Below are positions 1 to 30,069 of a DNA stretch of 30,069 bases, piece after piece. The translations under genes and the position numbers were made by a program. Source of the stretch: a virus; IMG/VR virus record IMGVR_UViG_3300038696_000634, positions 1-30,069 of that record, one strand, 5' to 3'. Every line of letters begins with the position of its first letter. The first letter of the stretch is position 1. The notes beneath the pieces are model-generated. The model was not told where the DNA came from, ran no database searches, and saw nothing but the letters and a program-made list of their open reading frames with translations.

Positions 1-1989
1 GACGAAGTCGCCCACGGCGGTTTCCGCGCTCTGGAACGCCCCGACCAACGTCTGGCCGATATCGCCACCGATATCGCGGGCCTTGGCTGCATATTCAGCA
101 AGAGCAGCCGTAACCGCGCCCCAGCCGGTTGCGGCTTGTGCCGCACCCTCGGCGGCCGCCGCTCCGGCTGCGCGTGCGGCGGCTCCAGCGCCACCGGCAG
201 CGGCGGCCGTCTCATCAAGTTCAACCCCGAGCGCATCCGCCGAGGTGGCAGCATCCGCGAGGGCTGTTTCCGCCTCCGTCCCGGCGCTGGTCATCGCATC
301 CTGCAGCGCCTGCCAACTCGCCAAGGGGCGGCCAGCCGCATCCGCCAACATGCCTGCCGCCTCGCGGTAGCCGTCAGCTCGGGCGCTGGCATCGTCGGCC
401 GCCGCCCCAAGCCCCAGATCAGGCGTATCGACGTAAGTTCGCCCCAGCGCCGCCGAGAATGCATCGGCTGCCGCAGCTCCCGCCGTCTCGGCCGCCCCCG
501 CGAAAGGGTTGTCAATCCCGCCGAGCGTCACCGGATCAAGTGTGCCGAGCCGCACGCCACCTTCGCCGGTTGCCCATTCGGGGAGCAGGTCCAGCGCTGC
601 GTTTAGCGTTGCAATGAACCCATTGATCCGGGTGACGACACCGTTCAGCATCGACTCGACCCCGCTGATCAGACCGTTTGCCGCCTGAAACGCGAAGTCG
701 CCAATGGCACCGGGAAGCCGCCCCCAGATCGCCTTCATCGCATCGAATGCGCCCTGGAACACAGCCACCGACCGGTCGCCAAAGCTGAACACGCCCGTCA
801 CTGCACCGTCGAGCGCCGTCAGCGCAGTGGCCTTCATTCCCTCCCAACCTGCTGCCATTCGCGCTAGCTCTGCATCCAGCGCCAGACCGATGCGTCCCCA
901 GACCTCGGAGGCGAGGTCGGAGAGCAAACCCATGGCGTTACCAAAGCCACCAGCACCGGCCATAAGTCGGGTGAACTGATAGACGAGCTCGCCCGCGCCG
1001 ACGATCAGCGCGCCGATCCCGGTCCGGATGAGCGCCCCGCGCAGGAACACCAGCGCTGTGGCGAGGCCCCGCACCGACAGCGCGGCCATGGCCATGCCTG
1101 CCACCCAGTGCCCGGCCATGAGGCCCGCGAATGTGGCGGCATAGGTCGTCAGCCGTCCGATATTGTCGAACAGTGCCGTGATCGCGATACCGACCGGCCC
1201 GGTGGTGCGCGCGACGGCGGCCAGCGCATTGGCCACAGCCTCGAGCGCGGGTGCCGCCGCCACGGCCAGTTGGTTCGAAACCCCGCGCCAGATCAGCCCG
1301 AGGCGGGAAATCGCATCATTGGTCCGCTCGATCTGGTCAGCATCCTGCTCGGAAACCACCACCCCGAAGGCAAGCACGTCCTCTGTCGCCTGGCGTAGTG
1401 TCGCCGTGTCGATGCGCGACATGGCGATGGAGCCTTCCTCGCCGAAAAGCTGCCCCGCGACTGCGGCGCGCTCAGCCGCAGGTACGAATTCCGCGATGGC
1501 GGCGTTGATCGCCCCGACACGCTGGTCCAGCGGCAAAGCGATCAGGTCGGAGGCCGACAAACCCAGCCGGTCCAGCGCATCGGCGGCCGGGCCGGTCCCG
1601 GCAGCAGCCTGGCTCAGCCGCCGCGTCAGATCCTTCGTGGCCTGCTCGATCCCGGACATCGACACACCGGCCAACTCGCCTGCGCGCTCCAGTGTTTGGA
1701 TCGAGGCGACGGTCGTCCCGAGCGACTGCGCCAGTTTTGCCTGCGCGTCCACCGTCTGCAGGCCCGAGCGGATCATCGCGGCCCCGGCGGCGGCCAGCGC
1801 CGCCGTTGCGGCGGCTGCAGCCAGCGTGGCACGACGAGCGAAAGCGGCCACGCGGGCATTGGCCATGTCCATCTCGCGCGACAGTCGCCCGAAGCCGCGC
1901 GCGCCAGCCGAGCCCACACCCTCCAACTCGGCCCGCACCTGGCGGCCGCCTTCCGCCACGAGGCGGACGGAGACCCGTTTTTCAGCCAT
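1..1989 (-). CDS. Phage tail tape measure protein (3' end beyond window)
   Basis: The frame is open from the ATG at 1989 to the left edge, giving 663 codons with no stop, so the C-terminus lies outside the window. The N-terminus (MAEKRVSVRLVAEGG) is followed by a long Ala-rich, helix-rich region, then hydrophobic segments around residues 290-350 and Ala/Gly-rich stretches towards the edge. This composition is typical of tape measure proteins, which set tail length and sit inside the tail tube. The gene follows the chaperone frames directly: its ATG overlaps the stop of the frameshifted chaperone extension (1982-1984). Position (tube, chaperones, then tape measure) supports the call more than any single motif. 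In lambda the equivalent is gpH. Confidence 0.85.
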   Translation of the reverse strand, partial: MAEKRVSVRLVAEGGRQVRAELEGVGSAGARGFGRLSREMDMANARVAAFARRATLAAAAATAALAAAGAAMIRSGLQTVDAQAKLAQSLGTTVASIQTLERAGELAGVSMSGIEQATKDLTRRLSQAAAGTGPAADALDRLGLSASDLIALPLDQRVGAINAAIAEFVPAAERAAVAGQLFGEEGSIAMSRIDTATLRQATEDVLAFGVVVSEQDADQIERTNDAISRLGLIWRGVSNQLAVAAAPALEAVANALAAVARTTGPVGIAITALFDNIGRLTTYAATFAGLMAGHWVAGMAMAALSVRGLATALVFLRGALIRTGIGALIVGAGELVYQFTRLMAGAGGFGNAMGLLSDLASEVWGRIGLALDAELARMAAGWEGMKATALTALDGAVTGVFSFGDRSVAVFQGAFDAMKAIWGRLPGAIGDFAFQAANGLISGVESMLNGVVTRINGFIATLNAALDLLPEWATGEGGVRLGTLDPVTLGGIDNPFAGAAETAGAAAADAFSAALGRTYVDTPDLGLGAAADDASARADGYREAAGMLADAAGRPLASWQALQDAMTSAGTEAETALADAATSADALGVELDETAAAAGGAGAAARAAGAAAAEGAAQAATGWGAVTAALAEYAAKARDIGGDIGQTLVGAFQSAETAVGDFV

Positions 1990-2224
1990 CACGGCTTCCT
2001 TCCATCTGTTCGTTCACTTTACGGACCATCACGGCCTCGATTTCGGGCAGCAGTTCGGCGGCGATCAGGGTGTCGATGCCCAGCGCTCGGGCGAGAGCAA
2101 TTGCCGCGCCCATGTCCCAGCCCAGCACAGCGCCGGGGATCACCCGCAGCTGCCCGCCAAGGCGACCAACTAAATCCCAGACCTGCCAGCCGTCCTGTGT
2201 TTGGGGCTGGTTCAGTCTTTTGGG
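1982..2224 (-). CDS. Tail assembly chaperone C-terminal extension, probably made by -1 frameshift (gpT-like)
   Basis: The -1 frame relative to the chaperone ORF is open from the slippery site to the TGA at 1982-1984. It encodes about 80 residues, including DGWQVWDLVGRLGGQLRV and MGAAIALARALGIDT, with acidic and hydrophobic helices. It has no convincing start codon with its own ribosome binding site near its beginning; only CTG, TTA or GTG codons or a mid-frame ATG are available. Its stop overlaps the tape measure ATG. In lambda, gpG and gpGT are made from the same arrangement. A separate small tail protein initiated at the internal ATG is the alternative. Confidence 0.65.
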   Translation of the reverse strand, partial: PKRLNQPQTQDGWQVWDLVGRLGGQLRVIPGAVLGWDMGAAIALARALGIDTLIAAELLPEIEAVMVRKVNEQMEGSRDG

Positions 2225-2649
2225 GCAGTCTGGGCACGGCCCCTGGCAGGCGGCGCAGTACCGATCGCCCCCGCCGAAGGACCAGTCGGCGAGAGCGCGG
2301 AGACGTTTTTTTCCGCGTCCAGGATCAGCCCGCGCGCGACGTATTGGGTCTGGAAGGCTTCAAAGACCGGCCAGATTTCTAGGAGGGCGTCGATTCCTTC
2401 TGGCGAAACGGGGATGATATTGCCTGCATCATCGCCGACACCCTCCCAATCCAGCACGGCGCGCCGGGCGACGGCTTTCGCCATGGCCAGCGCCAACTCT
2501 TCGGTCGTGGACGTTTCGGGCATGGCTTCTATGGCTGGATCGGCGCGGGCCGAAACCATTAGCGCGGTGGTCAGGGGTCCGACGAGCAGGCGCAGTCCGG
2601 AAGCCAATTCCAGCCATTCGGGTGAAACGGTCAGGTTCAGACGGATCAT
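2212..2649 (-). CDS. Tail assembly chaperone (gpG-like)
   Basis: This is a 145-residue protein starting MIRLNLTVSPEWLEL. I chose the ATG at 2649 because it lies just after the tail tube stop (2652-2654); the longer open frame upstream only shadows the tube gene. The sequence is acidic and helical in the middle (ETSTTEELALAMAKAVARRAVLDWEGVGDD) and ends in a Pro/Ala-rich tail (PPARGRAQTAPKD). I do not recognise a named domain. The call rests on position between tail tube and tape measure and on the -1 slippery heptamer near its 3' end. It would bind the tape measure and recruit tube subunits during assembly. Confidence 0.65.
   Translation of the reverse strand: MIRLNLTVSPEWLELASGLRLLVGPLTTALMVSARADPAIEAMPETSTTEELALAMAKAVARRAVLDWEGVGDDAGNIIPVSPEGIDALLEIWPVFEAFQTQYVARGLILDAEKNVSALSPTGPSAGAIGTAPPARGRAQTAPKD
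2218..2224 (-). promoter_or_regulatory. Candidate -1 programmed ribosomal frameshift heptamer
   Basis: Read on the minus strand, the chaperone frame ends GCC CCA AAA GAC TGA. The heptamer C CCA AAA fits X XXY YYZ exactly (X=C, Y=A, Z=A). Slipping back one base gives CCC AAA AGA CTG and enters the downstream open frame. The site is two codons before the stop at 2212-2214. Tail chaperone frameshifts just upstream of the tape measure gene are widely conserved in tailed phages. The match and the frame relation are seen; frameshifting itself is inferred. Confidence 0.65.
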
Positions 2650-2651
2650 GA

Positions 2652-3590
2652 TCAGTATCCTGTGAGTGTGTTGGTAAGGACGGCCGTGCACATGCGCGCC
2701 GGGCTGGTGGCGCGGGCCGCCTGCCAGTCGAAGCTGGCCTGCACGCCTTGCGGCCCGGCGATCTCGATGCGCGGGATCGGCAGATATACGGCGTGGGCGG
2801 TGAAGGTGAAGCTGGCATTGGCCCCGAGGCTGTAGACGAATTCCAACTCGCAAGGGCTGCCGTCGATGGCTTGGGTGACCAGCGCCGTGTCAGAAAATCG
2901 CACCTCGATCCGGCCGGTCAGCGCGGCCATGGTGGGGTCGGCTCCATCAATGCGGCCATCGCCGCGGATGGTTTCAATGCGGTCGAGGTTATTGGAATAG
3001 GTGATTTCGGCAGAAACCACATTGCCCAAGGCCGAGCCATTGCGCTTCACCGTGCCGTTGAAATGGCCAAACCGTTGCAGGCCCAGCGCGGTCGGTGTGC
3101 CAGCGGCGGTTGCGGCGGCGATGGTTTCGCCTTGGGCAATGAGCCGGGCGGTCGCCGTGAGCAATCCCGACCTCTGCATTTGCCACGACAACTGATCCAG
3201 CACACAGCCAGAATACATGGCAAAACGCGGCACCTCCGGCATGGCGGTTTCGATCGACATGCTGGGCAACGTCCAGTTGCCGGATTGGAAAGTGTGGGTC
3301 TTGGGCGTGGTGCCGCTGGTGACTGGCTGGCCGAAGGCCGCCTTCAGCCAGAACCCGAAGGCCTCCACATCGATCGGCACCACCACCTCGCCGTCGGCGG
3401 TGACCGCATCCTTGATCGGGGCCAGCGGATCGCGGCCATAGCCCAGCAGTTCGGATTCCAGCAGCGGCTGTTCCGACCCGAGTGTCGTCCGGGCAAAGGG
3501 CATCAAGCGGAACCCACTCACCGGCGGGGTGCCGTAAACTGTCTCATACGCAAGCGCCATCTGCGCCCGCGCGCCTTGCGCACGTGCCAT
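2652..3590 (-). CDS. Phage tail tube (major tail) protein
   Basis: This is a 312-residue protein beginning MARAQGARAQMALAYETVYGT, preceded by a good GGAG ribosome binding site. It resembles the phage tail tube family seen in alphaproteobacterial siphoviruses: an N-terminal 'AYETVYGTPP' segment, beta-rich repeats such as GEVVVPIDVEAFGFWLKAAFG, and a C-terminal beta domain (ELEFVYSLGANASFTFTAHAVYLP). It would polymerise as rings around the tape measure. It lies between the tail terminator gene (24-nt gap) and the chaperone, the normal lambda-type order. Confidence 0.8.
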   Translation of the reverse strand: MARAQGARAQMALAYETVYGTPPVSGFRLMPFARTTLGSEQPLLESELLGYGRDPLAPIKDAVTADGEVVVPIDVEAFGFWLKAAFGQPVTSGTTPKTHTFQSGNWTLPSMSIETAMPEVPRFAMYSGCVLDQLSWQMQRSGLLTATARLIAQGETIAAATAAGTPTALGLQRFGHFNGTVKRNGSALGNVVSAEITYSNNLDRIETIRGDGRIDGADPTMAALTGRIEVRFSDTALVTQAIDGSPCELEFVYSLGANASFTFTAHAVYLPIPRIEIAGPQGVQASFDWQAARATSPARMCTAVLTNTLTGY

Positions 3591-3614
3591 GGGGGTCTCC
3601 TTTATGTGGGGGTG

Positions 3615-4037
3615 TCAGGCCAGAGGGCCGGAAGTGGTGTAGTGCAGCACGACGGTGATCACCGCCGCTTTCAGCGCCGCCGCGCCCTCGATAGGCAGGT
3701 CAACCGAGGCCGGGGCTTCGGGTTCGATCCAGTCGCAGAGGCCGCCCAGCGTACGGTCGGCTTCCAGCGCCGCGCCGATGGCGGTGATCAGGGTGTCAAA
3801 GGCGCTGGCCCGGCCATTCGGGGCCTGGACGACGACCTCCAGCTCGGCCCGGTGCTGGTAATGGTAGCGTAGGGGCGACAGGGTCACCTCCGGCTCGCCC
3901 GGTTGGCCGTCGCGCAGAATGATCAGCCCTGCCGCAGGGATCCGCTCTGGCAGCACCTCGTCACGCAAGGTGAGGGCGGCAAGCGGCTGCAGCCGCGCGT
4001 GCAGCGCAGCGAGGACGGTTTCGCGGGAGGTGGGCAT
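3615..4037 (-). CDS. Tail terminator / minor tail protein
   Basis: This is a 140-residue protein, MPTSRETVLAALHARLQPLAALTLRDEVLPERIPAAG. The start (short helix, then 'AALHARL..L..', then 'I.RDG.P..PEVTLSPLRYHYQHRAELEVVVQ') is characteristic of phage tail completion/terminator proteins (lambda gpU-like fold). It would cap the finished tail for joining to heads. Its ATG at 4037 is the last element of the structural operon before the inserted plus-strand cassette. In an uninterrupted relative it would probably abut the DUF6441-type gene now at 5488-6120. The ribosome binding site is weak (GAGAG). Confidence 0.65.
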   Translation of the reverse strand: MPTSRETVLAALHARLQPLAALTLRDEVLPERIPAAGLIILRDGQPGEPEVTLSPLRYHYQHRAELEVVVQAPNGRASAFDTLITAIGAALEADRTLGGLCDWIEPEAPASVDLPIEGAAALKAAVITVVLHYTTSGPLA

Positions 4038-4087
4038 TCGTTGCTCTCAAGTGTGCGGCTTCAGGAAGATCGGCTAGGAGCCGATAG

Positions 4088-4119
4088 TTGACACGGTGAA
4101 CCGGTTAGAAAACTACTAT
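4088..4119 (+). promoter_or_regulatory. Possible promoter and operator of the moron cassette
   Basis: TTGACA at 4088-4093 is a perfect -35-like element. TACTAT at 4114-4119 is a weak -10 with an over-long 20-nt spacer; AACTAC at 4111-4116 gives 17 nt but matches poorly. The 8-bp palindrome AACCGGTT (4099-4106) sits between the two boxes, a natural place for a repressor such as the HxlR protein encoded next. The segment 4038-4229 holds no gene and is clearly AT-richer than the structural genes. Confidence 0.35.
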
Positions 4120-4229
4120 GTTGGGTCCCGGTTCTCGTTCGGTTCGTTTCGTTTAAAAGCGAATGTAGCGGGGTGCTAAGAGTGCTAGGCTTCAACGTCA
4201 GGCCCTTTTGGCCTTTGGAGGGCGCTGGA

Positions 4230-4928
4230 ATGAAGCGAGGGAGTTATGAACAGTTCTGCCCAGTTGCGATGGCATCCGAAGTTCTTTGCACGAGATGGAC
4301 AATGGTTCTTGTCCGTGAACTCGTGGCAGGTTCCACGAGGTTCGGGGACCTTCGACGAGGCGTTCCCAGGATGTCTCCCTCACTTCTGTCACAACGGCTG
4401 AAGGAGCTTGAAGCCGCAGGGATCGTCTCCCGCATGCTCGTTGCCGGTGAGGCTGGTATTCACGAATACCAACTGACGACGGCCGGAAAAGACCTAAAAC
4501 ACATCGTAGAGTCCTTTGGTATCTGGGGGCAGAAATGGGTAGAGACCAGAGCTACTCTCGAGAACCTCGATCCTTCACTGTTGATGTGGGACATGCGGCG
4601 CAACATTAACCCGGCCCCGCTGCCGTCGCAACGGACTGTCATTCAGTTCTGCTATCCGGAACTTCCCGCCAATCGCCGCGACTGGTGGTTGATCATCGAT
4701 CCGGAGGCGAAGGTCGCAGTGGATCTTTGTGCGACCGATCCCGGGATTGAGGTTGATCTTTGGATCACCACGGACCTCAAGACCATGACTGCCATCTGGC
4801 TGGGGCTATCCTCAGTGAGTGATTCTCAATCAAAAATGCTCGTTGATGGTGACCCTGCATTGGCGCGATCCATGGCGCAATGGTTGGGCCTCAGTCACTT
4901 CGCCTCGCAGAAGAAAATCGTCAGGTAG
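4230..4928 (+). CDS. HxlR-family winged-helix transcriptional regulator with C-terminal SCP2-like domain
   Basis: The protein has 232 residues if started at the ATG at 4230, which follows a strong GGAGG site eight bases upstream; the open frame extends further 5' without such a site. The first ~100 residues show the HxlR/MarR-like pattern: a conserved early Cys in 'EQFCPVAMASEVLCTRWTMVLVRELVAG', then 'RFGDLRRGVPRMSPSLLSQRLKELEAAGIVSR'. The C-terminal half (DWWLIIDPEAKVAVDLC, VDLWITTDLKTMTAIWLG, ARSMAQWLGLSHFA) looks like an SCP2 sterol-carrier-like ligand domain, which some HxlR regulators carry. The gene runs opposite to the phage tail operon and is AT-richer. It probably controls the haemoglobin gene 94 nt downstream. 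The N-terminal Cys could sense redox or electrophiles, but this is inference. Confidence 0.85.
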   Translation: MKRGSYEQFCPVAMASEVLCTRWTMVLVRELVAGSTRFGDLRRGVPRMSPSLLSQRLKELEAAGIVSRMLVAGEAGIHEYQLTTAGKDLKHIVESFGIWGQKWVETRATLENLDPSLLMWDMRRNINPAPLPSQRTVIQFCYPELPANRRDWWLIIDPEAKVAVDLCATDPGIEVDLWITTDLKTMTAIWLGLSSVSDSQSKMLVDGDPALARSMAQWLGLSHFASQKKIVR

Positions 4929-5022
4929 CGGTCTAATCTAGGGCGAGTCCAGTTTCAGGACTATCGGTAACTTCTTGTTGCTTCCATTGCTTGTGAGGAA
5001 GTTTCAATGAATGGAGAATGTC

Positions 5023-5382
5023 ATGACCGATACCCTTTACGCTCGCCTCGGAGGGGCGGATGCAATCGTCCGCATCGCGTCCGACCTCGTCGACAATCAC
5101 ATTGCAAACCCTCTGATAGGCAAACGGTTCGCAGGCAGCGACGTGATTGCTATGAAGAAGAAGGCAGCGGATTTCTTTTCAATGGGTTCGGGCGGTCCCA
5201 ACAACTATGACGGGTTGGACATGCTCAGCGCCCACAAACACATGAACATTTCCGACAACGAATATATGGCTGCCGTCGATGACCTGATGAAGGCGCTTAC
5301 GAATGCGGACGTAGGCGATCATGAAAAAGCTGAAGTGCTCTATATCTTCCACACCCTTCGTCCCGACGTCGTTGGCGTATGA
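5023..5382 (+). CDS. Group 1 truncated haemoglobin
   Basis: This is a 119-residue protein, MTDTLYARLGGADAIVRIA. I chose the ATG at 5023 (GGAG six bases upstream); an in-frame ATG at 5011 would add four residues. Family marks are 'LYARLGG', the Gly-rich 'SGGPNNYDGLDM' loop, 'SAHKHMNIS' with the proximal haem His, and a C-terminal 'TLRPDVVG'. Length matches the family. These proteins bind O2 or NO at haem and often act in NO detoxification. An oddity is helix B, which reads 'ASDLVDNHIANP' where most relatives have 'DFY' before the helix end. The distal Tyr at B10 therefore seems to be replaced by Val, which would change ligand handling. Finding it inside a tail operon marks it as a moron gene. 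Confidence 0.88.
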   Translation: MTDTLYARLGGADAIVRIASDLVDNHIANPLIGKRFAGSDVIAMKKKAADFFSMGSGGPNNYDGLDMLSAHKHMNISDNEYMAAVDDLMKALTNADVGDHEKAEVLYIFHTLRPDVVGV

Positions 5383-5480
5383 ATGTCCTGTAGTATGGTT
5401 TGTCAGATTTCACGGCCTGAGTTTCCCTGCATGCTGTCTGCCAGATTGATCTCGCTGCATACGGCCGCTTCGTCCGCATT

Positions 5481-5497
5481 GCTGACGTTAGGTCAGC
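5481..5497. repeat. Short perfect inverted repeat at the stop of the DUF6441-type gene
   Basis: GCTGAC (5481-5486) and GTCAGC (5492-5497) form a 6-bp stem with a 5-nt loop that contains the TAA stop of the minus-strand gene. Neither strand has a T-tract after it, so it is not a classical terminator. It sits at the boundary where the plus-strand cassette meets the minus-strand operon. The rest of 5383-5487 holds nothing I can name. Confidence 0.4.
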
Positions 5498-6120
5498 TTG
5501 CCGTCAACCCATGCAGCCACAATCCGCCCCGGCACGCCGTCCACCGCCCGCTCTGCATCCCGCGCCAGATCGAGCCGCTTGCGCAGCTTGACCTGTGGCA
5601 CCAGCAGGAAGATTGGCACGGTTGCAACGCCGCGTCCGGTCTTCGACCTCGATGCCACGGCCCGGCCTTTCGAATTCAGCCGCCCTTCCGCCACCAGCAG
5701 GCTCGGCCCACGACGGCGATAGATGAATCGCAGGCGCAACCCAGTGCGGCGTTCCCATTCTCCGGGAGTGATGCGACCGCCCCTGGTGCTTTTGCCAGCG
5801 GCCGGAGTGGGGATGGCCAGCCAAAACCCATCCTTGGACCGGATCAGCGGGCCAGTGTCATGCGCGCCGATAATGATCGGGGCATTTGACCAGACCAGCG
5901 CCGCTGCGTTCAGGCTGTCGCCGGATTTGGGGAAACTGGCGAGGCGGATGCTATTGCCAAGCCTAGTGCCGAGTTTAGCGCCGGTGATTTGGCCGCGCCA
6001 GGCGGATTTCAGGGAGGTGCCAGCCTCGCGCATGGCGGCGGACACTGCCTTTTCGCCAGCCGCGATTTCGGCCTGCATCAGGGCGGCGATGTCCGGATCG
6101 AACGCGACCCGCAGCCTCAT
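5488..6120 (-). CDS. Phage tail/connector protein, DUF6441-like
   Basis: This is a 210-residue protein starting MRLRVAFDPDIAALMQAEIAAGEKAVSAAMREAG, with 'TGPLIRSKDGFWLAIPTP', 'GGRITPGEWERRTGLRLRF' and 'PQVKLRKRLDLARDAERA'. These blocks match what I remember of the DUF6441 family from alphaproteobacterial prophages. It occupies the place of the HK97 gp10-like head-tail component, between the head-tail adaptor (ATGA overlap at 6117-6120) and the tail terminator. The protein is strongly basic. Exact function is unknown. Confidence 0.65.
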   Translation of the reverse strand: MRLRVAFDPDIAALMQAEIAAGEKAVSAAMREAGTSLKSAWRGQITGAKLGTRLGNSIRLASFPKSGDSLNAAALVWSNAPIIIGAHDTGPLIRSKDGFWLAIPTPAAGKSTRGGRITPGEWERRTGLRLRFIYRRRGPSLLVAEGRLNSKGRAVASRSKTGRGVATVPIFLLVPQVKLRKRLDLARDAERAVDGVPGRIVAAWVDGKLT

Positions 6121-6431
6121 GTTGGCCTCAGGTCCAGCGACCAGATCAGCCGTTCGCGGTCACGCACTGGTTCGCCCTGAATGGTGAAACTGTCCGCCCC
6201 GATCACGATCAGATCGCCGGGGCGGGGACCGGGCAGATCGGACACGCGCACGTCGACCATCATGGTATCGCTGACAAATCGTGCCGCCCCGAATTCGGTG
6301 ATGCGATCCGCGGCGCGGTGCATGACCCGAATAGGTGTTTCCTCTGATGTGGTTGCAGAAATCCACAGAGCCGCCACCGCCATGGACGGGCTGGTGTAGA
6401 TACGATCCATGGCGGTGGCAAAGACATCCAT
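6117..6431 (-). CDS. Head-tail adaptor / head completion protein
   Basis: The frame is open from 6470, but I prefer the ATG at 6431 (MDVFATAMDRIYTSPSM, 104 aa) because it lies just after the capsid stop. The longer version would overlap the capsid gene. The protein shows beta-strand features (MMVDVRVSDLPGPRPGDLIVIGADSFTIQGEPVRDRERLIWSLDL) typical of lambda gpFII-like or HK97-type head-tail joining proteins. It overlaps the next gene by four bases (ATGA), so the two are probably translationally coupled. Confidence 0.6.
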   Translation of the reverse strand: MDVFATAMDRIYTSPSMAVAALWISATTSEETPIRVMHRAADRITEFGAARFVSDTMMVDVRVSDLPGPRPGDLIVIGADSFTIQGEPVRDRERLIWSLDLRPT

Positions 6432-6441
6432 GCTGGACCCG

Positions 6442-7464
6442 TCAGTTCGAGGTGTGAATGCGGATCGCAATGCGCGGCCGCTTGTTGACCGGCAGAATTG
6501 AGGCTTCGGTCATCAGGTCGATCCAGCGCCCTTTTTCGTCGAGGTGCTGGCGGGCGTAGAGCGGCAGACCCATTGTGTTGGCCGCCTCCAGCAGGTTGGC
6601 CGGGCCGCCGTAGGTGGTGAAGGTATCCATCGTGCCCAGCGGGAAGGCGATGCCTTCGCTGGCGGGCACCAGCCGTTCGGTCGCTTTGGTCGAGAGGGTG
6701 ACGGTGCCGCTGTATTCCTCGAACACGATGCCCGCGAAGGGAAAGTTGCGGCGCACATCCTGGCGCAGGGGTTGCGCGCCGGTGGCAGCGTAGAACTTGT
6801 AGGCCTCCTCGGTTTTGGGGTGCGCGATCAGCTTGTCGAAGAACTCGCGGCTGACGAGGGCATGCACATCACTCATGCTTTCGCCGAGCAGGTTGTCTTC
6901 CATCGACCGCAAGACCTCGCGCACCTTGCCCTGCACATTGGTGCCTGCGGTTCCGAGCAGGAAATCGACCGAGATTTGAGCCAGCCCGAACTCGGTGAAG
7001 TAATTGTAGAGCGTGGTGCCCGCGCCATCCTTCACGATACCGCGCAGGGCGTTCATCTCCATGTATTCGCGGGTCTGGGCGTGCTTGCGTCGCATCAGTT
7101 GCAGCTTGCGGTTCATCACCTCGACCAGCGGGTCGGCGCCATCGAAGACTCCCAGCGCCGGTTGGCCCTGAATATCGCCCGGCAGAATGACGTCGTCATG
7201 CGGAATCCACGGCAGGGCGAAGGACCGCATCGACCGGCCTTCCCGCGTGCCGACGGTGGACGGGCCACCCAGCGGCACCGAGGGCAGCAGGTTCAGCACG
7301 CCCTCGTATTGCTCGATAATCACCGACCGCTGGCTGACCCCTTCGAAGCGGAAGAGGCCGATCTGGCCAAGGCGGGTGTAAAGGTTGGGCAGGATGTTGA
7401 TGGCCTGCGTCATCTCGGCCAGCGAATAGCCGCCAGCGTCAAATGGATTGCGGACAAGGGTCAT
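6442..7464 (-). CDS. Major capsid protein (lambda gpE family)
   Basis: This is a 340-residue protein, MTLVRNPFDAGGYSLAEMTQAINILPNLYTRLGQIGLF. The N-terminal arm, 'E..EG.L.LLP..PLG', 'LPWIPHDDVILPGDIQG', and 'MEDNLLGESMSDVHALVSREFFDKLIAHP' fit the phage major capsid protein E family. The length is that of lambda gpE. It has a GGAG ribosome binding site and lies directly after the decoration protein, as in lambda (D then E). Confidence 0.92.
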   Translation of the reverse strand: MTLVRNPFDAGGYSLAEMTQAINILPNLYTRLGQIGLFRFEGVSQRSVIIEQYEGVLNLLPSVPLGGPSTVGTREGRSMRSFALPWIPHDDVILPGDIQGQPALGVFDGADPLVEVMNRKLQLMRRKHAQTREYMEMNALRGIVKDGAGTTLYNYFTEFGLAQISVDFLLGTAGTNVQGKVREVLRSMEDNLLGESMSDVHALVSREFFDKLIAHPKTEEAYKFYAATGAQPLRQDVRRNFPFAGIVFEEYSGTVTLSTKATERLVPASEGIAFPLGTMDTFTTYGGPANLLEAANTMGLPLYARQHLDEKGRWIDLMTEASILPVNKRPRIAIRIHTSN

Positions 7465-16614: not shown

Positions 16615-17937
16615 TCAATTACGACTGGCCGTCCGCCCCGTCGCCATCTCCCACCGCCGCACGGCCACGTCGCAATAGACCGGGTCCAACTCCATCGCGA
16701 AGCATCGCCGCCCAGCGCGTTCGGCGGCCACCAGTTGGGTGCCGGAGCCGCAAAACGGCTCATAGATCAGGTCGCCCGCATCCGAGAACGCCGTCAGCAC
16801 CGTCTCGACCAGCGCCACCGGAAACACGGCCGGGTGCGATCCGGCAGCGCCCAGCCCACCCTTGTGGCGCATGATGCGGAAGACGCTGTCCGGGATGCGG
16901 TGGCTTTGGATCGCGTTGCCGGTGCCGGTCTTGGCGTGAACGGTGCCGTCGGCCCCGCGCAGACCACCGCCGCCGAGGGTCTCGCCCGCGTGCTTCGACG
17001 GGACGGTTTTGTGCGGTTTGCGCGGCGCGCGGTTGAAGTGGAAAATGAACTCGTGTGACGGGGCCAGGCGGCCGTTCCAGTCGCCCGGCAAGCCCGGGCC
17101 CTGATCCCAGACATACCAGCCAAAGCGTCGCCAGCCAGATTTTCGCATCCATTCGACCCATCCTTCCCAATAGGGCTGCCATTCGCTGTCGCGGTGCACG
17201 AGGCCGAGATTGACCAGCAGCTGCGCATCGTCGGTGATCGGGGCTGCGGCGAACACGCCTTGCATCAGCGCATCCCAATCGCCGACCTTTTCCTTGGCCG
17301 CGCCGTAGTCGCGCTGCTGCGCGTAGGGTGGCGAGGTGAACATCAGCGTCGCCTGTTCGCCCTGCATCAGCTGGGCCACGGCGGCAGGATCCGTTGCGTC
17401 GCCGCAGCAAAGCCGGTGTTTGCCCAGCGCCCAGATGTCACCCGGCTTGGTAATCGGCTCAGTAGGCGGTTCGGGAATGGCATCAGCCGCATCGTCAGAA
17501 ATCACCGGGCGGTCGTCGGTATCTGCCAACAGCGCGTCCAACTCATCGTCCGGGATCCCGATCAGCCCGAGGTCGAAATTCTCGGCCAACAGTGCCTGCA
17601 ACTCTTGCAACAGTAGCGCCTCGTCCCAGCCACCCAGTTCCGTCAGTTTATTGTCGGCGATGCGATAGGCCCGGCGCTGCGCCTCGGTCAGATGGCCCAG
17701 AATGATGACCGGTGCCTCAGTCAGCCCAAGATGGGCCGCCGCCAGGACGCGACCGTGACCAGCAATCAACTCCCCATCAGCACCCACAAGCACTGGGACT
17801 GTCCAGCCGAACTCGGCCATGCTGGCGGCGATCTTCGCGACCTGATCAGCGTCGTGGGTTTTGGCGTTGCGGGCATATGGTTTGAGCCGGGCCAAGGGCC
17901 AATGTTCGATCCGGCCCGGCAGGATTGGCGCATTCAT
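16615..17937 (-). CDS. ParB-like domain fused to DNA methyltransferase (TSPPY type)
   Basis: This is a 440-residue protein. Residues ~10-100 are a ParB/Srx-like domain (RLKPYARNAKTHDADQVAKIAASMAEFGWTVPVLVG..GELIAGHGRVLAA). The catalytic motif TSPPY is at about 201-205 and the SAM-binding 'EPFCGSGT' near 395-400, the beta-class order. TSPPY is more usual in N4-cytosine enzymes, DPPY in N6-adenine ones, so the modified base may be cytosine; this is inference. It overlaps the upstream paralogue by four bases (ATGA), so the pair is co-translated. Confidence 0.88.
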   Translation of the reverse strand: MNAPILPGRIEHWPLARLKPYARNAKTHDADQVAKIAASMAEFGWTVPVLVGADGELIAGHGRVLAAAHLGLTEAPVIILGHLTEAQRRAYRIADNKLTELGGWDEALLLQELQALLAENFDLGLIGIPDDELDALLADTDDRPVISDDAADAIPEPPTEPITKPGDIWALGKHRLCCGDATDPAAVAQLMQGEQATLMFTSPPYAQQRDYGAAKEKVGDWDALMQGVFAAAPITDDAQLLVNLGLVHRDSEWQPYWEGWVEWMRKSGWRRFGWYVWDQGPGLPGDWNGRLAPSHEFIFHFNRAPRKPHKTVPSKHAGETLGGGGLRGADGTVHAKTGTGNAIQSHRIPDSVFRIMRHKGGLGAAGSHPAVFPVALVETVLTAFSDAGDLIYEPFCGSGTQLVAAERAGRRCFAMELDPVYCDVAVRRWEMATGRTASRN

Positions 17938-19193
17938 GCCGTCAGCCTCTTGGCCTTCAGGTCGGCAAAGGTCTCACCGGTGTCGGCCAAGACAGCATTC
18001 GCGCCGGTGAACTGCTGCCAGCGTTCAATGGCCACATCGACATAGGTGGGGTTCAACTCGATCCCGAAGCAGAAGCGGCCTGTGGTTTCTGCGGCGATAA
18101 GCGTGGTGCCGGATCCCATGAATGGCTCAAACACCGCCTGACCGGGGCTGGAGTTGTTCAGGATCGGGCGGCGCATGCATTCCACCGGCTTCTGGGTACC
18201 ATGGACGGTGGCCGCATCCTGGTCTTTGCCGGATATTTGCCACAGCGTGGTTTGCTTGCGATCCCCCGCCCAGTGTCCCTTGCCGGTCTTTTTCACGGCA
18301 TACCAGCAGGGTTCGTGCTGCCAGTGATAGTCGCCCCGGCTGAGAACAAGCCGGTCCTTTGCCCAGATGATCTGCGACCGCACGGCGAAACCTGCGGCCA
18401 CCAGACTCTCGGCCACGGTCGAGGAATGCAGTGCGCCGTGCCAGACATACGCGACGTCGCCAGGGAACAGCGCCCAAGCTTCACGCCAGTCGGCACGGTC
18501 ATCGTTCAGCACCTTGCCGGTGCGCTTGGTTTTGGCCGCGCCAGCTTGGTTGCGCCAGGACGGATCGTAGTCCACACCGTAGGGCGGATCGGTCACCATC
18601 AACAGCGGGCGGACATCGCCCAGCAGTCGCGCGACCACATCGGCAGAGGTGCTGTCGCCGCAGATCAGCCGGTGCGATCCCAGCTGCCAGATGTCGCCCG
18701 CCACCGAAACCGGCGTGACAGGCGGTTCGGGAATGTCGTCCTCGCCCTCGACCGCACCACCCTCGAACTGATCCGGATCGCGCAGCAGGGCGTCCAGATC
18801 TTCGTCGGTGATCCCCAGCAGTGACAGATCGAAATCTTCGGCCAGCAGCCCCGCGATCTCGTCGCGCAACATCGCCTCGTCCCATTCGCCCAGCTCGGTC
18901 AACTTGTTGTCTGCGATCCGGTAAGCTCGGCGCTCTGCCTCGTCGAGGTGGCTGAGCCGGATCACCGGTACATCCTTCAGCCCCAGCATCGCCGCCGCCA
19001 GGATCCGGCCATGCCCGGCGATCAACTCGCCATCGTCGGCCACCATGCAGGGGACGGTCCAGCCGAACTTGGCCATGCTGGCCGCGATCTTGGCGACCTG
19101 GTCAGTGCCGTGGATCTTGGCATTGCGGGCGTAGGGGCGCAGCCGGTCGAGAGGCCAAGTCTCGATCTGGCTCGGTGCGAAGACCAGGTCCAT
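17934..19193 (-). CDS. ParB-like domain fused to DNA adenine methyltransferase (DPPY type)
   Basis: This is a 419-residue protein. Residues ~10-100 repeat the ParB-like domain of the next gene almost word for word (RLRPYARNAKIHGTDQVAKIAASMAKFGWTVPCM, GELIAGHGRILAA, ERRAYRIADNKLTELG). The methyltransferase part has DPPYGVDY (about 202-209) and 'EPFMGSGTTLIAAE' (about 356-367), the beta-class N6-adenine pattern. It is probably an orphan enzyme protecting phage DNA. Gene-free sequence with repeats and promoter-like boxes lies upstream. Confidence 0.9.
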   Translation of the reverse strand: MDLVFAPSQIETWPLDRLRPYARNAKIHGTDQVAKIAASMAKFGWTVPCMVADDGELIAGHGRILAAAMLGLKDVPVIRLSHLDEAERRAYRIADNKLTELGEWDEAMLRDEIAGLLAEDFDLSLLGITDEDLDALLRDPDQFEGGAVEGEDDIPEPPVTPVSVAGDIWQLGSHRLICGDSTSADVVARLLGDVRPLLMVTDPPYGVDYDPSWRNQAGAAKTKRTGKVLNDDRADWREAWALFPGDVAYVWHGALHSSTVAESLVAAGFAVRSQIIWAKDRLVLSRGDYHWQHEPCWYAVKKTGKGHWAGDRKQTTLWQISGKDQDAATVHGTQKPVECMRRPILNNSSPGQAVFEPFMGSGTTLIAAETTGRFCFGIELNPTYVDVAIERWQQFTGANAVLADTGETFADLKAKRLTA

Positions 19194-19640: not shown

Positions 19641-20651
19641 TCAGCTTGCCTTCGATTTAGCCACGAGGGATTTGAAGGCACTTTCACCAATGATGAGAAT
19701 GGGATGCCCAGCGCTTTGCATGTCTTCGGCCTTACGATGCTTGCTGCTCTTGGTGTGACCTGCCAGCACGGTCAAATCCTGATCACCCACGACCAGATGC
19801 GTCGTCTCCTTGGTCACACCGGGTTTCACGGACATGCCGACCCGGGCCGCGAGTTCAGCGGCCTCGTTGCGGGACATGCCCAGCGCGCCTGTGAAGACCA
19901 CCACCGACCCCGCCAGTGCGCCTTTGGGATCGCCATTCATGGTGATCGGGGCTGCGTAGCTCTTTCGGCCGACGGGTTTGATCAGTTCCTCGAAGGAAAG
20001 CCGAAGATGCAGCTCGGCATGCAGCACAACCATTGCAGCGGCGCGGGCGTCCTCGCCCGCATCATGATGGTGGAACTGCAGGTTCAGCGTGCGCTTGAGG
20101 TTCGCCAACCCGTGTCCGCCGTTGCCCTTCAACTCGGGCCATGCCCGCCTCGCGATCTGGACGCTGTCGCTCCAGCGCAAGTCAGGGGCGTCGATGCCGC
20201 AGAAACCGCAGGCAGCATTCATCGCCTGCTTGTCGAAATTGCTGTGCTGGATCAGGTGGTGGCGCGTCAGCAACGGGAGTAGCGCGGTCAAGGCGTCGGG
20301 GAAGCGGGGTGCATCCGCTACATGATCTGGACCAATGCCGTGGAGCTGAATGTTGAACGCGTCAAACCGGGTGCTGGGATTGACCAGCATGGAGAACGTC
20401 TGGATCTGATTGTCGGGTTGGACGCAGGCAAGGCCGATCTGGCAGATACTGGCGACATCACTGCATGCAGTTTCCACATCCAGTGCGACGAAACGGAAAC
20501 TGCCCTCCGGCACTTTGATTGCGTGCGCGAATGCCGGTCGTACAGGATGGCGGACGATCGGGGCTGGCTGATAATCCTCCGTGGCGCGTACGGGCTGCCT
20601 CTGTTGGGTCGGTTTTGGGGTTCGGCCAAACAGCCAGTCAAAAAGTGCCAT
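19641..20651 (-). CDS. DEDDh 3'-5' exonuclease with C-terminal BRCT domain
   Basis: This is a 336-residue protein. Residues ~52-215 are a DnaQ/epsilon-type exonuclease: 'FVALDVETA' (Asp58, Glu60), 'HSNFDKQAM' (Asp140) and 'HHHDAGEDARAA' (His196, Asp201), giving the DEDDh set. Residues ~245-330 are a BRCT domain (LAGSVVVFTGALGMSRNEAAELAARVGMSVKPGVTKETTHLVVGD), like that of NAD-dependent ligase. It would trim DNA ends in repair or replication. It follows the restriction gene by 74 nt and ends before the TGGMTTCC repeats. Confidence 0.9.
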   Translation of the reverse strand: MALFDWLFGRTPKPTQQRQPVRATEDYQPAPIVRHPVRPAFAHAIKVPEGSFRFVALDVETACSDVASICQIGLACVQPDNQIQTFSMLVNPSTRFDAFNIQLHGIGPDHVADAPRFPDALTALLPLLTRHHLIQHSNFDKQAMNAACGFCGIDAPDLRWSDSVQIARRAWPELKGNGGHGLANLKRTLNLQFHHHDAGEDARAAAMVVLHAELHLRLSFEELIKPVGRKSYAAPITMNGDPKGALAGSVVVFTGALGMSRNEAAELAARVGMSVKPGVTKETTHLVVGDQDLTVLAGHTKSSKHRKAEDMQSAGHPILIIGESAFKSLVAKSKAS

Positions 20652-20725: not shown

Positions 20726-21625
20726 TCATCCGTTCCACGCAAGAAGGATTCCGGAATTTGCTGCGATCATTACCTCGGCTTGGACGCGAGGCTTGTAAGA
20801 AACGAATTCGCTCCCGTTGCAAAAGGGCAGGCCCAGTGCTTTTATCAACGGTGCGTCGTAATGGCCCGACAGTAGCAGCACACCTTCCCGCGCAAGATGA
20901 TCCCTCGTTCCCTTGCCATTGTCTGCTCGTATCCGGCGCATAAAGTCCTGTTGTTGTGCCACCGCCTCAATGACAGAACGCGTAATTGGTATTTGCTGCA
21001 ATTCCCGGAACAGCGACATAACTCTACGATTCCCAGATTTACCAGCGAAAATCCGATCAATCACATCAGAAGGCACCGTGCGCCAGAAATTTGGCGGGTA
21101 AGGATGCGCATTTAGGAGCCACAGTATGTTGGCAAAGCCGAGCGCTGAGATAGATTTCTTTGAATCCTTATTTTGGCCGACGGTAAGATATTCAGGGCGT
21201 GCCACAATAAGTCCAAGGTAGCAAACTGCACGAACCTCATCGGCAGCCACCAAGATGCAAGGATGACCTACAGCTTCAGTTGGGATCATCCAGTTGCTTC
21301 CCATCGTATTCTTGATGTCCACATCGTGGCCCAAGATGACAGTATCCAGTCTACCCTTGTTCAGGTTGAGCATCGCCCGAAGTTCAATCTCCACGCGCGT
21401 TCCGATATAAGTCTTCTCGGTTTTTTCGAGCTCGTCATACGAGCGACGACCTGTTTTCGGCGTCATGATAACGTCATCGACGCATTGACGCAGCATGGTC
21501 GAAAAGCCCTCCGACAGGGCTTCGGTACCACCAGCGCGCTGTATGATGTCAGCCGCAATAGATGTCAGCAGTTGAAAATCTGTGTGCCCATCGAGGACGG
21601 TGCTTGTGGGAACGTTTTGCTTCAA
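20726..21625 (-). CDS. NaeI-like type II restriction endonuclease
   Basis: This is a 299-residue protein starting at TTG 21625; an in-frame stop lies eight codons upstream and no ATG fits. It aligns by eye along most of NaeI as I remember it: 'TGRRSYDELEKTEKTYIGTRVEIELR', 'DVDIKNTMGSNWMIPTEAVGHPCILV', 'PPNFWRTVPSDVIDRIFAGKSGNRRV', 'ITRSVIEAVAQQQDFMRRIR', and 'ALGLPF'. The catalytic set Glu79, Asp94, Asp103, Lys105 keeps the NaeI layout (E, D, D-x-K). The ligase-like Leu43 neighbourhood of NaeI is not conserved; Val is at that place. NaeI cuts GCCGGC and needs two sites. The partner methylase lies just upstream. GC is lower than in neighbouring genes. Confidence 0.85.
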   Translation of the reverse strand: MKQNVPTSTVLDGHTDFQLLTSIAADIIQRAGGTEALSEGFSTMLRQCVDDVIMTPKTGRRSYDELEKTEKTYIGTRVEIELRAMLNLNKGRLDTVILGHDVDIKNTMGSNWMIPTEAVGHPCILVAADEVRAVCYLGLIVARPEYLTVGQNKDSKKSISALGFANILWLLNAHPYPPNFWRTVPSDVIDRIFAGKSGNRRVMSLFRELQQIPITRSVIEAVAQQQDFMRRIRADNGKGTRDHLAREGVLLLSGHYDAPLIKALGLPFCNGSEFVSYKPRVQAEVMIAANSGILLAWNG

Positions 21626-28812: not shown

Positions 28813-30069
28813 TCAGGCGCTTTTGTGGTCCTGATCGGCGTCATGCACCAGCTGCGGGCGGGGCCGGAAGATGCTGGCGACAGCATTGACCCCGTCGCGC
28901 AGGGGAGAGTCCATCAGGTGGGCATAGCGCTGGGTCGTCTGCATCTGCGTGTGGCCCAGCAGCTTGCCGATCATTTCCAACGAGGCCCCGCCGCTGACCA
29001 ACAATGATGCAAAGGTGTGGCGCAGGTCGTGGATCCGGACATCGGGCAGATTGGCCTCGGTCTGGATCCCGATCCAGAACCGGCGGATTTCCTTGACCGG
29101 TTGTCCGGGCGTGTCGCCGGGAAAGAGCCACGGATTGCCGCGCGGCACGAGCAGTGACCGCTCGCGCACGATGGCGGCCACATCGCCCGAGATTGGAATA
29201 CGGTGGATCTTGCGCTGCTTGGTGGTCGCGGCGGGTTTTGACCAGCTGCCAAGGTCGAGGTTGAACTGCTCGAACCGTGCCAGCCGCACCTCGCCCGACC
29301 GTGCGCCGGTCAGCATGCAGAGCCGGATAATCCCCGCCGCACGCTGATCCTTGGCGGCATCCAATGCCTTGGCCAGCCGCCCGATTTCCTCGGGCGTCAG
29401 GAACCGCTCTCGTTCATTCTCGATCCGGCGGCGGAAGCCGCTGGCGGGATTGTCGGCGCGCATGCCCCAGTCGATGGCCAGCGTGAACATCTTGCGCAGC
29501 ACCTCACCCACCCGGTTGGCGCGCACCGGCGTGGGCTTCGGCCCCTGCAACTTGCGCGCCCGATTGTTCGGCTTGGTCTTGGACGGCCGGGCGCGACCAG
29601 CGGCGATCTTGGTCAGCAGCTTTTCCACATCGGCCTTGGTGACTTCCGTCACCAGCTTCTTGCCCCAGTCGGGCGCCACCAGCTTGTGCATGATGGTGTG
29701 CTGGTCGGCGGCGTTGCGTGCAGCGAGGTGCGGCGTGTGTTCCGCCAGATAGCGCGCGATCATATCGTTGACCCGCGGGGCCTCACGCGACGTTTCCCGT
29801 AGGCTGAGGGGATCGATCCCCTCATCGATGTCGCGCCGCAGTTCCTTGGCCCGTTCGCGCGCCGCGACCGCGTTCCACTCCGGCCAGCGCCCGATGGTCA
29901 TCCGTCGCTGCCGTCCCGCGATCCGGTAGTCCAGCGTGAAGGCCCGGTTGCCCGAGGGGTAGATGGTGATCGAAAACCCGCGCACATCGGTGTCGAAGAT
30001 CTGGTAATCCCGCCCCAGGTTCTCAGCCTCCCGGACGGTTTTCTCATTCAGTTTCAGCCTGTTGACCAT
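28813..30069 (-). CDS. Tyrosine-type integrase (DUF4102 arm-binding domain)
   Basis: The protein has 418 residues from the ATG at the window's last bases (MVNRLKLNEKTVREAEN); a start further right cannot be excluded. The N-terminal DUF4102 domain is 'GFSITIYPSGNRAFTLDYRIAGRQRRMTIGRWPEW'. The core-binding domain spans about 100-215. Catalytic residues are Arg257 (TGARSGEVR), Lys284, 'HDLRHTFAS' (His347, Arg350), 'LLGHTQ' (His373) and Tyr382 (QRYAHL). It recombines attP and attB. The att site is expected beyond the right edge; none was identified here. Confidence 0.93.
   Translation of the reverse strand: MVNRLKLNEKTVREAENLGRDYQIFDTDVRGFSITIYPSGNRAFTLDYRIAGRQRRMTIGRWPEWNAVAARERAKELRRDIDEGIDPLSLRETSREAPRVNDMIARYLAEHTPHLAARNAADQHTIMHKLVAPDWGKKLVTEVTKADVEKLLTKIAAGRARPSKTKPNNRARKLQGPKPTPVRANRVGEVLRKMFTLAIDWGMRADNPASGFRRRIENERERFLTPEEIGRLAKALDAAKDQRAAGIIRLCMLTGARSGEVRLARFEQFNLDLGSWSKPAATTKQRKIHRIPISGDVAAIVRERSLLVPRGNPWLFPGDTPGQPVKEIRRFWIGIQTEANLPDVRIHDLRHTFASLLVSGGASLEMIGKLLGHTQMQTTQRYAHLMDSPLRDGVNAVASIFRPRPQLVHDADQDHKSA

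Follow-up and report, generated by a model that had tools for sequence, protein, structure and literature searches.

A putative HxlR-controlled truncated haemoglobin cassette in a cargo hotspot of a marine bacterial virus

The inserted genes and the slot that holds them

The stretch of DNA analysed here (the window) is the whole of a 30,069-base virus record, IMGVR_UViG_3300038696_000634, which belongs to a marine bacterial virus. Its head and tail genes form a minus-strand operon encoding a terminase, a portal, a protease, a capsid protein (PF03864), a head-closure protein, a DUF6441 protein, a tail terminator, and a tail tube; the names terminase, portal, protease, and tail tube are what we take these proteins to be from their sequences. 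An integrase gene lies at 28813-30069. The operon is split between the DUF6441 and tail terminator genes by two plus-strand genes. One encodes an HxlR-family regulator of 232 aa with a C-terminal extension (4230-4928; PF01638, E=2e-22), and the other encodes a group 1 truncated haemoglobin of the TrHbN-2 type, 119 aa long (5023-5382; PF01152, E=7e-9). On the late strand, the DUF6441 gene (5488-6120, minus strand; PF20039, E=2e-44) is the upstream neighbour of the insert and the tail terminator gene (3615-4037, minus strand; phrog_4204, E=2e-44) is the downstream neighbour. These profile matches bear out the arrangement that the first-pass annotation had read from the letters of the sequence. 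The two genes are also AT-richer, as it had stated, with a GC fraction of 0.55 for HxlR and 0.54 for the globin as compared with 0.62-0.67 around them.

The inserted plus-strand cargo segment spans ~4085-5462, and these limits are approximate. As judged by eye, phage-type flanks common to other prophages extend up to ~4084 and begin again from ~5463, and the homology to the chromosomal cassettes described below reaches at most 4135-5489. The DUF6441 protein has a homologue at 47% in phage RcKemmy (gp12); DUF6441 proteins are annotated as minor tail proteins in Rhodobacter phages, and a search of the open literature found no paper on DUF6441. Three cultured phages (RcKemmy, RcOceanus, and Sc-Yong805-1) have homologues of the DUF6441 and terminator genes that share a 4-bp overlap, ATGA, so an uninterrupted junction exists. 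This is the intact tail operon that had been suggested as a check on the locus. The pair in the window therefore interrupts genes that adjoin in relatives and has a composition unlike that of the phage, in agreement with its earlier description as inserted cargo (a moron) in the late operon.

Related prophages were gathered by scanning with the capsid and DUF6441 proteins, and the best 80 matches of each scan gave 95 distinct sequences. In all 95 of these, a gap of 447-3727 bp separates the DUF6441 gene from the terminator gene, while the adjoining gene pairs have median gaps of 13, -1, and 27 bp. The gap is a cargo hotspot, with the HxlR-globin pair as one occupant, because in every one of these close relatives (best 80 of each scan) it is filled with mostly unrelated, AT-richer DNA (median GC 0.556 for the cargo and 0.673 for the flanks) and the neighbouring gaps are tiny. 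By DNA similarity, the contents fall into 58 cargo groups, the largest with 22 members (95 sequences, best 80 of each scan). Some cargo matches defence models, namely DRT9 reverse transcriptase (L041:10226-11773), PD-Lambda-2 (L157:7040-8185), and viperin. Much of it is not defence, and metabolic genes, transporters, and methyltransferases are found as well as many genes with no known family (loci L013-L160). The hotspot is thus a place to seek new phage-defence or host-modifying genes of marine bacteria.

Other features were observed in and outside the slot. A cargo protein of one relative (L159:8900-10537) combines a Mu-F-like domain with an EndoU nuclease domain at its C-terminus, an architecture like that of polymorphic toxins. 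A repeat-like sequence at the DUF6441 end of the slot, TTCGTCCGCATTGCTGACGT, was considered as a portal for recombination via dispersed repeats and was dropped because eight Rhodobacteraceae genomes contain few copies of it (0-4 loose matches). Elsewhere on the minus strand of the window there are a NaeI-type restriction endonuclease gene (20726-21625; PF09126, E=1e-57), two tandem N6/N4 DNA methylase genes near it (16615-19193), and a gene for a single protein with an RNase T-type exonuclease domain and a BRCT domain (19641-20651; PF00929, PF00533). The region 20.7-22.8 kb is AT-richer.

The globin, its regulator, and a candidate operator

By profile and by fold, the globin is a group 1 truncated haemoglobin of the TrHbN-2 subgroup: it scores above the PF01152 cut-off, and the top fold match of its predicted model is 7tt9 (TM 0.87). 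Among solved structures, Shewanella benthica HbN (SbHbN) is its nearest relative (E=7e-30). Pocket residues, mapped through the SbHbN numbering of PMC11904497, are B10 Val23, B13 His26, CD1 Phe36, E7 Met44, E10 Lys47, E11 Ala48, and F8 His71. The proximal histidine, His71, is invariant in 24 sequences, and the B10 valine and the B13 histidine are each invariant in the nine closest ones. A lysine at E10 could act as a sixth ligand, as it does in some algal globins. Residues Val23, Met44, Ala48, and Phe36 conform to the TrHbN-2 pattern of hydrophobic B10, E7, and E11 with Phe at CD1, for which low O2 affinity is expected (PMC11904497); in the same work, the B13 histidine of SbHbN is regarded as a notable deviation.

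The apparent absence of the B10 tyrosine had earlier been taken as a sign of altered ligand chemistry. The residue is indeed valine, but there is nothing special in this: a hydrophobic B10 is normal for TrHbN-2. A phage-specific loss of the tyrosine was rejected, as the chromosomal copies and the TrHbN-2 subgroup also do without it. Because the absence is the norm of the subgroup, low O2 affinity is predicted for the window globin rather than efficient NO dioxygenation, and it is not expected to match mycobacterial HbN in strong NO dioxygenation.

The regulator carries the HxlR winged-helix domain (PF01638, 79 bits against a cut-off of 20.8) and an N-terminal cysteine, Cys10, that is invariant across 16 HxlR proteins. 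HxlR regulators commonly sense thiol-reactive compounds. The predicted structure of the C-terminal half (pLDDT 48) is too poor for use.

Ahead of the globin gene lies a 21-bp inverted repeat, GAGTCCAGTTTCAGGACTATC (AGTCC-N7-GGACT), at 4945-4965 on the plus strand, a probable operator of HxlR. It is identical in the window and in five chromosomal copies (6/6), while its surroundings vary. Each of five genomes has a single match to it when up to 3 mismatches are allowed, always before the globin gene, and its reversed control has no match at this threshold in the same genomes; the number of matches expected by shuffling in the window is 0. In 10 of 16 more distant genomes of the family with a globin, an HxlR relative (58-67%) adjoins the globin gene in divergent orientation. 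Several of the intergenic regions of such divergent pairs contain related sites, such as AGTACAGTTTCTGCACTA or GTACAGTTCCTGTAC; in only about half of the ten divergent pairs does the best related-site match score above almost every shuffle. The repeat is likely the HxlR operator, given its identity in all six copies, its single occurrence in a genome, and the related sites next to divergent pairs. The simplest reading of these patterns is a dedicated HxlR with one target.

A different control region had been proposed, in which a TTGACA box at 4088 serves as a promoter and HxlR binds at 4088-4119. At a spacing of 16-18 nt no acceptable -10 element accompanies the box, and the five chromosomal copies lack the TTGACA; nor is the proposed binding site conserved, the conserved putative site being 4945-4965. 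Conserved blocks lie upstream of both the HxlR and the globin genes. A consensus scan of 3950-5600 found no sigma-70 promoter or terminator, and an Rfam search gave no match. Some divergent HxlR-globin operons include an added gene, either a tautomerase (L196:4658-4879) or a weak match to a cupin (L190:5369-5788, L198:5363-5776), and these additions would fit, without proving, an electrophile or redox theme.

Origin and possible role of the cassette

When bacterial and archaeal species genomes were scanned, the globin turned up at 89-95% identity in six contigs of Rhodobacteraceae. HxlR (74-88%) is just upstream in the same tandem order in five of these, and the sixth contig ends too soon to show the arrangement. 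The pair is carried by Roseovarius, Rhodalgimonas, Mameliella, Maritimibacter, and Thioclava contigs. Its chromosomal neighbours differ each time and include a zinc dehydrogenase, leucyl-tRNA synthetase (leuS), glutamine synthetase, and uvrA, among others; none of the tested phage structural genes lies near the chromosomal pairs. The close version is present in only 2 of 397 sampled genomes of the family, and the pair is AT-richer than its surroundings on chromosomes too. On these sequence comparisons, the pair acts like a movable unit of sporadic occurrence. At the DNA level, its copy in the window is ~82% identical to the best match on a chromosome. Acquisition by the phage is probable, because the pair sits on five chromosomes with different neighbours. 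Pairwise dN/dS against the chromosomal copies lies at 0.03-0.06 (globin) and 0.06-0.13 (HxlR), which indicates that both proteins have been under constraint, if mostly before capture.

Searches with the globin, a globin alignment, and the HxlR protein found only one further viral contig with the cassette, a second IMG/VR contig of 41.8 kb (L002) that has it at the same place. Window positions ~110-7179 (7.07 kb, cassette included) differ from L002 by three mismatches, and beyond 7179 the two are ~10% divergent through the capsid, portal, and terminase genes. A near-identical block followed by such divergence points to two mosaic phages that recently exchanged DNA. As only two viral contigs carry the cassette and they share this block, its capture may have been a single recent event.

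The reading that we favour, and consider probable, is that a bacterial cassette of HxlR and a globin that it probably controls was captured into the cargo slot of temperate phages related to Rhodobacteraceae prophages. The contrary case named by the first-pass annotation was a gene pair fixed in host chromosomes and joined to phage DNA by faulty assembly. The pair is indeed present on bacterial chromosomes, as a sporadic cassette, but an assembly artefact is hardly credible: both junctions recur in L002 despite the divergence of its other structural genes, the phage copy differs in DNA by at least ~18% from every chromosomal copy found, and an insert occupies the same place in 95 of 95 distinct sequences (best 80 of each scan).

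It is also conceivable that the slot takes any DNA and that the cassette is transient host DNA of no benefit to phage or lysogen. Its presence in one phage lineage only and the extreme variety of slot cargo are in keeping with such a neutral passenger, and the pairwise dN/dS values, which mostly mirror a chromosomal past, leave room for recent neutrality. We nevertheless think this unlikely, given that neither gene is disrupted, that pairwise dN/dS relative to the chromosomal copies is low, that the putative operator is unchanged, and that recognised defence and metabolic genes also occur in the slot. Those defence genes (DRT9, PD-Lambda-2, and viperin matches) raise another idea, that the globin shields the lysogen from competing phages, perhaps by clearing a reactive species or by changing respiration while the infection proceeds. 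This appears very unlikely, since PADLOC gave no match for HxlR and no globin model among the matches listed (25 of 59 families), the chromosomal copies lie outside visible defence islands (by eye), and much of the slot cargo is not defence.

If the captured-cassette reading is correct, HxlR would sense an electrophile or oxidant via the invariant Cys10 and then let go of the inverted repeat at 4945-4965, so that the globin would be made in the stressed lysogen. The globin, with its hydrophobic distal pocket, B13 histidine, and E10 lysine, might act with low affinity on O2, peroxide, or reactive nitrogen and protect the lysogen or adjust its respiration. Since the cassette runs opposite to the late genes and probably has a control site of its own, it could be expressed during phage dormancy. 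The firmest of the results are the hotspot and the conserved operator-like site, whereas we infer the physiological role, namely that lysogens would gain redox protection or protection from reactive species. Tentatively, a mobile HxlR-globin stress module might move among Rhodobacteraceae chromosomes via the phage slot and give lysogens an inducible globin for handling reactive species or oxygen; we hold this to be possible, though somewhat short of an even chance. If that is so, this would be the first description of a regulated haemoglobin cassette as lysogenic-conversion cargo, and its site would be a large phage accessory hotspot that has not been catalogued. Through the pair, a globin family with no assigned role gains a predicted operator and a predicted regulator dedicated to one target, so that its inducing signal becomes open to direct test.

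Comparison with known systems

Searches of the open literature found no paper describing a truncated haemoglobin that a phage carries together with a regulator, nor one on an HxlR-globin regulatory pair. The parts of the cassette can be compared with known systems separately. S. benthica HbN (PDB 7tt9/8ugz; PMC11904497) has ~45% identity to the window globin and the same fold (TM 0.87), and the two have in common hydrophobic B10, E7, and E11 residues, the proximal histidine, and the B13 histidine. They differ at CD1, where the window globin has the Phe normal for the subgroup and SbHbN has Tyr34, and at E10, where Lys replaces the Met of SbHbN. Unlike SbHbN, the window globin is phage-carried and paired with HxlR. 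Another phage-borne Bac_globin (PF01152, E=7e-7; 30% identity to the window globin) is the truncated-globin relative STG2_99 of Salmonella phage STG2 (MK005300.1, 81184-81606; L003:3001-3423). It differs in that it belongs to a T5-like phage, has no adjoining HxlR, lies in a tRNA-rich region, and is annotated as hypothetical; no further phage record of the collection contains it.

With the thiol/redox regulators of the HxlR family (RrpB, YodB, HypR type), the window HxlR shares the PF01638 HTH, the N-terminal conserved cysteine, and a candidate inverted-repeat site beside the presumed target, and its match to RrpB is below threshold. Unlike them, it has an extra conserved C-terminal half of ~120 aa with an invariant Cys167 and is apparently single-target (the globin). 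The slot itself resembles those of prophage morons and the P2/P4 accessory hotspots (PMC9122126), in which a fixed position among conserved phage genes likewise holds variable accessory or defence genes. In contrast to the P2/P4 hotspots, it is found in another phage family and at another position, between DUF6441 and the tail terminator, and here its cargo is a globin with a regulator.
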